Shown piece after piece: positions 12,920-38,911 of a DNA stretch of 40,406 bases. The stretch covers positions 1 to 40,406 of the forward strand of contig JAFQTK010000017.1 in the NCBI GenBank assembly GCA_017409065.1, given 5' to 3'. A model generated the notes under the pieces. It was not told where the DNA came from, did not search any database, and saw only the letters and a list, made by a program, of their open reading frames with translations. The number at the start of each line of letters is the position of its first letter. The stretch's first letter is position 1. Both the position numbers and the translations under genes were made by a program. The DNA comes from a bacterium. Its GTDB lineage: Bacteria > Cyanobacteriota > Vampirovibrionia > Gastranaerophilales > Gastranaerophilaceae.

Positions 12920-13453
12920 TTAAAAAGCCGAGTAGTCTTTTTTAGACTTCCCAGCGTTATTATTACTATTTGAATTAGAAAAGTCCGTTGGTGGAGTGCC
13001 TTTTAATTTATCAGTTACTCCAGTCTCTACCGACTTATTATAAGTTTTTGCTAGTTTTTCGATATTATCTTTAGTTTTAGACTCGTCTAAATCTACAACA
13101 AACTCCACTAAGTCAATAGGGATATTTTTTTGACTAAGTAATTCTTGAGCCGTAATTCTATTTTCACGTAAAGTTAATTCGTTCTCACGTGATTTAAGCT
13201 CAGCCTCACGTTTACTTTTAGCCTCCTTTTCTCTTTCTTCTTCACTTAACTTAGCTTGTCGTCTTTCTTCGGCTATCGCTTGAGCTACCGCATTTTTAAC
13301 AGTCTCCTCATTTTTAGCGTTAACCTCTTTTAGACGTTGGCTAACAATGTTGTTAAGCTCCTCTTGAGTAAAGGTTTTTTCTCCAGCGTTTCCCTCATTA
13401 GTACCAGTATTAGCTGTGTTAACTGGTTGAGTAGTTTGTTTGTTATCGTTCAT
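12920..13453 (-). CDS. Scaffold protein (DUF4355-like)
   Basis: 177 residues: a low-complexity N-terminus rich in N, T and G, the motif FTQEELNNIVSQRL (about 28-41), a long charged coiled coil (about 42-105), a small domain around NIPIDLVEFV, and an N/S-rich tail ending KKDYSAF. This is the classic DUF4355 scaffold architecture; the protein guides capsid assembly and leaves the shell. Immediately upstream of the capsid gene. Its ribosome site (AAGGAGAG) lies just behind the terminator of the upstream RNA region. Confidence 0.9.
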   Translation of the reverse strand: MNDNKQTTQPVNTANTGTNEGNAGEKTFTQEELNNIVSQRLKEVNAKNEETVKNAVAQAIAEERRQAKLSEEEREKEAKSKREAELKSRENELTLRENRITAQELLSQKNIPIDLVEFVVDLDESKTKDNIEKLAKTYNKSVETGVTDKLKGTPPTDFSNSNSNNNAGKSKKDYSAF

Positions 13454-13498
13454 TATGATAACTCTCCTTTCTCCGTTTAACGCCCGTCGGCTAAATAG

Positions 13499-13526
13499 AA
13501 AAATAAGGCTCTATCGTAATAGACCC
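13499..13526 (-). terminator. Terminator-like hairpin at the 3' end of the RNA region
   Basis: Minus strand GGGTCTAT, loop TACG, ATAGAGCC (seven pairs with one G-G mismatch) is followed by TTATTTTT. It ends the gene-free region 45 bases before the scaffold ATG. Late transcription must pass it to reach the capsid genes, or the scaffold message must arise otherwise. Confidence 0.65.
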
Positions 13527-13537
13527 TTTACAAAAGA

Positions 13538-13597
13538 TAACCACTCCTACATGGGTATTTACAGTATTTCTACCACTCCCAAAAAGGTATTTACAGT
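13538..13597 (-). repeat. Tandem 27/28-base repeat inside the structured RNA
   Basis: Two units (13571-13597 and 13538-13565) share ACTGTAAATACC, then a variable loop, then GGGAGTGGTA or AGGAGTGGTTA. In each unit TACC can pair with GGTA/GGTT, so the repeat doubles a small hairpin. The loop bases differ (TTTTT against CATGT) while the stem and the ACTGTAAA leader are kept, which suggests selection on structure. Confidence 0.75.
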
Positions 13598-13969
13598 TTT
13601 CTTTTTCCTAGTATCTTAATTGATACTGTACCAACGATATAATGGAATATTTACCCCGCCCGTTCGTCGCACCTAACCATTTCAGACTACTCAGATGTAG
13701 TGCTTTTTATATATCGTTGCTACACTACCTATTAGAGATAGTGTTCTACATAGAAAAAAGCCAACCAGTCGCAACCGATTAGCTTAGGTATAGTCCAAAG
13801 ACGTCTACCGCAATTCTATAATTTATGGGTTGTAGTTGCTAAACCTCATATCAACTACGTGTCTCGCCCCAAGTTCACAAATCAAAAAAGAAAATAACGA
13901 AAAGCATATGAATTTTTATATAAAATAAAGGGGTTGAGAAAAGACCAAACGGCGAGATTTCCAAAATAA

Positions 13970-14158
13970 TTATGCTTTAACTTCTTCCCATAATTCTTCG
14001 CATTGTTCTATAGTAGTAATAGAGCTAGCCAAATAGATTTTATCAGTTAGATAAGGCTCTTGTCCCTCTTCTAACACTTCGTTTTTATCTTTTAATAAGT
14101 AGCCCTCTTTTGCTATTAACATATTTACATTCATTTTTTCATTTTTTACTATTTCCAT
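13970..14158 (-). CDS. Small protein behind the fibre gene (62 aa)
   Basis: 62 residues, acidic C-terminus (TIEQCEELWEEVKA), no membrane segment. It follows the LRR-type fibre gene by nine bases with AGGAGGT before the ATG. Small proteins of this type often follow tail or head fibre genes and may help them fold or attach; the exact role is unknown. Its stop lies about 10 bases before the start of the structured RNA region. Confidence 0.7.
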   Translation of the reverse strand: MEIVKNEKMNVNMLIAKEGYLLKDKNEVLEEGQEPYLTDKIYLASSITTIEQCEELWEEVKA

Positions 14159-15990: not shown

Positions 15991-16018
15991 AATAAAAAAG
16001 ACGCCTTAATCAGCGTCT
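15991..16018 (-). terminator. Terminator between head genes and the fibre/RNA block
   Basis: Minus strand AGACGC, eight-base loop, GCGTCT, then TTTTTTA. It begins within the stop codon of the 66-residue gene behind MuF. Together with the terminator at 13499-13526 it brackets the accessory block (three fibre-type genes plus the structured RNA). Confidence 0.75.
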
Positions 16019-38834: not shown

Positions 38835-38911
38835 TGGGGCGATATAAGGGGATCGAACCCTTGCATACTGGAGCCACAATCCAGCGTGTTAACCACTTCA
38901 CCAATACCGCC
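38835..38911 (-). tRNA. tRNA-His (GTG), CCA encoded
   Basis: Cloverleaf with acceptor GCGGTAT/ATATCGC plus an extra 5' G opposite C73, the hallmark of tRNA-His. The anticodon stem-loop CTGGATTGTGGCTCCAG shows GTG. The T loop is GTTCGATCC. The CCA end is encoded. The prophage is not inserted here. Confidence 0.95.

Follow-up and report, generated by a model that had tools for sequence, protein, structure and literature searches.

A mosaic of small RNA elements, ending in a pseudoknot at the ribosome-binding site, precedes a phage scaffolding gene

Results

A non-coding gap upstream of the scaffolding gene

The window analyzed here (the whole stretch of 40,406 nt, positions 1-40406) is a phage contig without a terminal repeat. 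On its minus strand a non-coding gap of 516 nt (13454-13969) extends from the stop codon of a 62-aa ORF (13970) to the ATG (13453) of a capsid scaffolding protein gene (12920-13453, minus strand), which was assigned by its match to PF14265 DUF4355 / phrog_172. The gene-free gap of about 460 bases described in the initial annotation is thus real and slightly larger than first stated. Only small frames (59 and 46 aa) overlap it on the plus strand, and no conserved reading frame was found across the homologous gaps of related phages, which differ from one another by indels and cassette swaps. The scaffold gene is followed by a 272-aa gene (12881-12063) whose product has no match in Pfam or PHROGs; judged by its position after the scaffold gene, we take it to encode the major capsid protein. 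On the other side, the neighbor previously labeled a fibre gene, which is 495 aa long, has no convincing Pfam or PHROGs match, and the gene that actually adjoins the gap is the 62-aa ORF. Between a terminator (T0) and the first element of the gap (E1) lie the 111-, 495- and 62-aa genes (15992-13970). None of them turned up in the related loci or could be convincingly placed in a protein family, and the three resemble a further passenger (moron) of the island. The contig also carries a phage tRNA-His gene (GTG anticodon; 38835-38910, minus strand) distant from the head operon.

Relatives were collected by a capsid protein search, which yielded 55 IMG/VR contigs and 14 GTDB genome contigs (individual relatives carry L numbers below). 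Their gap is bordered by a small gene and by the scaffold gene, and mostly spans about 120-460 nt. BLAST of the window's gap against these relatives returned separate conserved blocks only (q1-33, q95-151, q257-320 and q464-516), the first two being the two sides of E1 and the last being an element that we call E3. BLAST matches to Listeria A511-type phages were discarded, as they proved to be only a Shine-Dalgarno match in the ply511 region. When the whole gap was folded as a single piece the result was not significant (z=-1.6; 6/100 shuffles), and the case for structure therefore rests on comparison and not on energy. We also ran cmscan with all 4227 families of Rfam 15, at gathering score on the whole window and at E<=10 on 13400-14020. 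The gap gave no match at gathering score and chance-level matches only at E<=10, a result that covers the ROOL, GOLLD, HEARO, OLE and raiA models; the proposed membership in GOLLD or ROOL is accordingly not borne out.

E1 is a covarying two-helix element

E1 (covariance model R1) is a structured element of about 140 nt at 13829-13966 on the minus strand. A conserved GGAAA stands 5' of helix P1, whose variable AT-rich loop holds a CCUU motif, and hairpin P2 follows. The 5' strand of P1 (TCTCGCC, 13951-13957) pairs with GGCGAGA (13862-13868), with 100% of cells paired and with variants such as TACCGCC/GGCGGTA, TCTCACC/GGTGAGA, TCTCGCT/AGCGAGA and TCTCGCA/TGCGAGA. Hairpin P2 (GUAGUUG/CAACUAC, 13832-13858) encloses a 13-nt loop, AUAUGAGGUUUAG, with the consensus AURUGAGGUUUAG; it is 96% paired with 4 double-change pairs. 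Besides this loop, the conserved unpaired parts of E1 are the GGAAA before P1 and a GG before the P1 3' strand.

Alignment A1 contains 18 distinct sequences, with 7 pairs in P1 and 6 in P2. Standard pairs fill 98.3% of its cells and 8 of the 13 pairs have changed on both sides, giving a covariation score of 0.393 as compared with 0.142 in shuffles (0/500 as high). Sliding the partner strands abolishes this signal, and RNAalifold recovers P1 and P2 unaided. The long-range TCTCGCC/GGCGAGA helix seen in the initial annotation is therefore real beyond chance, being P1 of a covarying element. P2 additionally contains G-U pairs (columns 139-166, GU in 10; columns 146-160, UG in 10) where the opposite strand would have A-C. 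That these wobbles occur only on the minus strand implies that E1 is transcribed in the same sense as the head genes, which indirectly supports the view that E1 would act as an RNA on the strand co-transcribed with them.

A search with R1 located E1 only at this locus of this phage group (18 distinct related sequences). The window's copy scores 116.8 bits, a value to be read with the window's presence in the training set in mind. E1 was not found in 190 other genomes of the host family, and matches of a 22-nt E1 pattern outside the known members were at chance level by covariance model. On the capsid-protein tree E1 is patchy, requiring at least 3 gains or losses, which indicates that it is dispensable. 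As far as Rfam 15 shows, E1 constitutes a new RNA class.

The P1 loop of the window carries a C-rich, anti-Shine-Dalgarno-like motif, AACCCCUUU (13927-13935, minus strand). A CCUU, CCUC or CUCCU motif is present in 18/18 P1 loops against 11.6 expected from shuffles, which is modest evidence because the sequences are related. A pseudoknot between CCUU of the P1 loop and GAGG of the P2 loop was rejected since it is not kept in L024, as was pairing of an E1 CCGUUU with AAACGG of E3, which is missing in about half of the phages and thus attributable to chance. Past E1, a small hairpin, GGUAgacGUCuuugGACuaUACC (13787-13809, minus strand), is predicted by the MFE fold; it is window-specific, without comparative support.

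Terminators flank and divide the gap

Two terminator-like structures lie inside the gap on the minus strand. T1 (13754-13785), the mid-gap hairpin already noted in the initial annotation, has 12 pairs and a T run (1 found, 0.3 expected). T2 (13498-13528), just before E3, has the form AAGGGUCUAU-UACG-AUAGAGCCUU followed by AUUUUUC and a z of -3.6. Most relatives have a terminator at the T2 position, often AAGACGC..GCGUCUU and often 7-15 nt before E3. It is kept in four relatives that lack E1 (L009, L022, L060 and L035), so E1 is not needed for T2. A third terminator, T0 (AGACGC..GCGTCT, 15999-16018, minus strand), follows the phrog_29156 gene. In several relatives T0 abuts E1; the window has three genes between the two. 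A long-range stem between T0 and T2 was considered and dropped, as the stems mismatch in L062 and L063.

Promoter scans gave promoter-like sites not above shuffles, and in many relatives the T2-E3 spacing (7 nt in L006, for example) leaves no place for a separate promoter. Because the T0-E1 and T2-E3 spacings leave the island little room for promoters of its own, transcription from upstream probably reads through it.

Exchangeable modules occupy the E1-T2 interval

What lies between E1 and T2 varies from phage to phage. The cassettes include tRNA-Ile(UAU) in L006, L025 and L063, an HNH-like 132-aa gene (below the Pfam cut-off) in L010, small ORFs in L012 and L037, and three-hairpin H1-H3 modules in L016, L024 and L026; L007, L017 and L027 have nothing there. 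Behind the tRNA-Ile of L063 (3640-3735) we noted a structured-looking module, AUAGCUAG..CUAGCUACCA, that ends in CCA.

The window's own series runs T1, H1, module C inside a closing stem, H3 and a duplication, all described here on the minus strand. Hairpin H1 (ACACUAUC-UCUAAUA-GGUAGUGU, 13722-13744) has changed-stem equivalents in L114, L016, L024/L015, L026, L021 and L010, and those of hairpin H3 (AGUAUC-AAUUAA-GAUACU, 13610-13627) occur in L114, L016, L024, L026, L021 and L010. Module C (13632-13719) consists of a core, CUACAUCUGAGUAG..CGAACGGGCGGGGUAAA, within the stem CAACGATATA/TATATCGTTG. It recurs in L020, and a different phage, L114, has it together with H1 and H3, there too ahead of a scaffold-like gene. 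The core is near-identical in L114 and similar in L020, whereas the closing stem differs yet pairs in both, so that this long-range helix, too, proved real. The H1 and H3 stems of L114 likewise differ from those of the window yet still pair. As a unit H1-C-H3 folds with z=-5.0 in the window and z=-4.8 in L114; the L020 copy of module C alone was no more stable than shuffles. Module C, known in three copies, is less well supported than E1 or E3. The direct duplication ACTGTAAATACC..GGAGTGGT (13540-13597; copies at 13597-13572 and 13565-13540) had been read as a duplicated hairpin. The duplicated stretch is present, but it was not found in the gaps of relatives, and its fold is no more stable than those of shuffles (z=0.47).

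E3 is a pseudoknot directly 5' of the scaffold Shine-Dalgarno

The last conserved block, just outside the interval 13499-13960 of the initial annotation, is the 20-nt element E3, an H-type pseudoknot of the form GCC[GACG]GGC-GUUAAA-[CG]G (13473-13491, minus strand) directly 5' of the scaffold Shine-Dalgarno. Across 30 sequences its stem varies among GCC/GGC, GUC/GAC, GCU/AGC, CCC/GGG and GAG/CUC. The two final loop bases covary with the downstream dinucleotide (CG/CG, UG/CA, CA/UG, GG/CC and GA/UC), which identifies the fold as a pseudoknot. All five of its pairs have double changes (5/5; 30 sequences), 90% of cells are paired, and 0/500 shuffles did as well. With gaps set in the A-rich linker, 24/28 pseudoknot pairs form, as compared with 0/10000 shuffles; pairing is imperfect in four phages with GA/CC and in L071.

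E3 is present in relatives down to 47% capsid identity, and is common to Bacilli, Clostridia-type and Saccharibacteria-binned phages. In 40 IMG/VR contigs it stands each time 9-21 nt before an ORF, and 9/10 of the divergent downstream proteins tested are head scaffolding proteins. It also precedes the annotated scaffolding gene of Bacillus phage phi18-2 and occurs in Clostridia-type phages. A search for the exact core in 285 other genomes of the order and in a sample of 391 genomes of another phylum found none. The related contigs are binned with Bacilli, Mycoplasma-like, Clostridia, Bacteroidaceae and Saccharibacteria lineages; given this spread, and since E1 and the exact E3 core are absent elsewhere in the family and order samples, bin assignment is no proof of host.

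Neither the window's E3 nor those of 14 related loci match Rfam. Weinberg et al. reportedly described in 2017 the RNA motifs GP20-a and GP20-b beside phage GP20 (scaffold-type) genes. We regard E3 as a probably new ribosome-binding-site pseudoknot, with the caveat that GP20-a and GP20-b, like E3, adjoin scaffold-type phage genes and that E3 may be identical to a published motif outside Rfam.

In nine Clostridia-type phages (L084, L095, L096, L102, L106, L107, L108, L109 and L112) a second conserved element, GUCC-AGAACGUGCNGANGACNUUAAAAGCUGCAU-GGAC, stands directly upstream of E3. By appearance it is a further small structured motif in the scaffold leader; its L112 copy has no Rfam match. A DUF3800-VIII RNA (Rfam RF03075) is found at 7264-7199 (minus strand) of L111, a phage contig that carries E3.

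Discussion

The earlier proposal of structured RNA on the minus strand is strongly supported by E1 covariation, RNAalifold, E3 covariation and the stability of H1-C-H3. Its comparative test on homologues turned up covarying pairs in both E1 and E3. The single large RNA envisaged there gives way to a mosaic of small RNA elements, as the pieces are separate and are exchanged in relatives. The accompanying suggestion of two RNAs fits the presence of T1 and T2 inside the gap, and that of a new class is upheld for E1, within this phage group, and for the adjoining pseudoknot E3.

We favor, at somewhat short of an even chance, a model in which this mosaic RNA island splits the early- or minor-head genes from the scaffold and capsid genes, with E3 controlling scaffold expression. 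The late transcript would run into the island and part of it would stop or be cut there, at T1 and T2, with tRNA processing adding cutting in some relatives. E1 with its passengers would then remain as stable RNAs of short length, and the scaffold/capsid mRNA would acquire a 5' end of its own. Folded against the Shine-Dalgarno, E3 may then cap or gate that mRNA, setting scaffold translation or protecting the 5' end, and scaffold and capsid would be made at a level different from that of the low-copy head genes. The structures, their strand, their position and their modularity come directly from the comparisons; processing, dosing and any ligand are what we infer. The structural unit of the island that stays fixed is most likely E1, and separation plus separate dosing of head-gene and scaffold/capsid expression would be the island's most likely role. 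In favor of this model are the covariation of E1 and its occurrence at this position only, in 18 distinct related sequences, the sense-strand G-U pairs, cassette exchange between E1 and T2 among relatives, a T2 too near E3 for a separate promoter in many of them, and the covariation of E3 and its place before scaffold genes, including that of phi18-2. Against it, T2 also occurs in relatives without E1, which is patchy on the capsid-protein tree and dispensable, promoter scans were not above shuffles, and a phage antiterminator could simply let polymerase read through the terminators.

Alternatively, E1 could be a trans-acting sRNA whose CCUU/CUCC P1 loop pairs with the Shine-Dalgarno of phage or host mRNAs and which would end at T2 as its own terminator. 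Such pairing with Shine-Dalgarno sequences is known from the C-rich loops of sRNAs in Firmicutes. The motif in 18/18 loops is in keeping with this, as are cassette-less relatives that consist of E1 and T2 only, the usual sRNA layout. We nevertheless consider it unlikely, as any C-rich loop fits any Shine-Dalgarno, T0 lies 2-15 nt before E1 in many relatives with no place for a promoter of its own, and we found no consistent mRNA target. A fixed target was discarded when 17 phages gave no common best partner, the scaffold ribosome-binding site being the best in 3/17. A cis-acting antiterminator like the HK022 put sites would fit the layout of two hairpins upstream of one or two terminators that polymerase must pass for scaffold and capsid expression. 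That E1-less relatives (L009, L022, L060 and L035) keep T2 before the scaffold gene, and that H1-C-H3 or tRNA cassettes intervene, makes this quite improbable.

The repeats might instead be signals at the DNA level, for instance palindromes that serve recombination, packaging or a mobile element: the H1-H2-H3 modules can alternatively fold as long palindromes, and phages exchange them. Such a reading is harder to exclude for the H1-C-H3 module alone, but for the repeats generally it is very unlikely given the sense-strand-only wobble pairs of E1 P2 and the fusion of the E3 pseudoknot to a ribosome site. Least plausible is the view that the island belongs or is related to the ornate phage RNAs GOLLD and ROOL and forms multimers or cages. 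It shares with them a phage setting, a terminator and tRNA passengers, but it has no Rfam match, its size and conserved core differ, and only E1 (about 140 nt) is fixed while the remainder is exchanged or absent; we consider the relationship extremely improbable.

Extending the favored island model, E1 and E3 might be two undescribed RNA classes working together, the exchangeable island partitioning the head operon and E3 sensing the scaffold or another assembly protein and thereby setting the ratio of scaffold to capsid; capsid assembly would then have a common RNA checkpoint. We regard this bolder version as rather improbable. Strongly covarying phage RNAs of a new class are uncommon; the present locus yields two candidates with opposite properties: E1 is narrow and mobile, whereas E3 is tiny and common to phages with widely diverged scaffold and capsid proteins. 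To our knowledge, how scaffold and capsid levels are set from one operon has been worked out in few phages. E3 makes such control directly testable in an isolated phage, phi18-2 of Bacillus subtilis. Within this family of gut phages, RNA modules and tRNAs are also traded at one fixed spot of the head operon, much like genes at moron sites.

Comparison with known systems

Many GOLLD members exceed 800 nt and share a conserved 3' region, and GOLLD linkers sometimes carry phage tRNAs (PMC12286853). The island resembles them in being phage-encoded, structured and sometimes host to tRNA passengers. GOLLD RNAs, however, are hundreds of nt long with a universally conserved 3' region, whereas here the fixed part is the 5' E1 of about 140 nt, and the covariance-model searches of the whole window (gathering) and of 13400-14020 (E<=10) gave no GOLLD match. 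ROOL is a large RNA with multiple pseudoknots that forms an octamer (PMC12286853). The likeness is in a phage or prophage and rumen origin and in the nearness of some members to tRNAs; the difference is that ROOL is large and octamer-forming and the gap has no cmscan match to it. HEARO, OLE and raiA gave no Rfam covariance-model match in the gap either.

HK022 put is a two-hairpin, cis-acting antiterminator RNA. E1 is similarly a two-hairpin RNA, putatively acting in cis, in a phage operon upstream of terminators; unlike put, it can be absent from relatives while the terminators persist, and the likeness is one of layout. The scaffolding protein of P22, gp8, autoregulates its synthesis post-transcriptionally, and we know of no pseudoknot operator in that control. 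E3 differs in being a conserved RNA element, and resembles the P22 system in that its putative role would likewise place post-transcriptional control on the scaffold gene.
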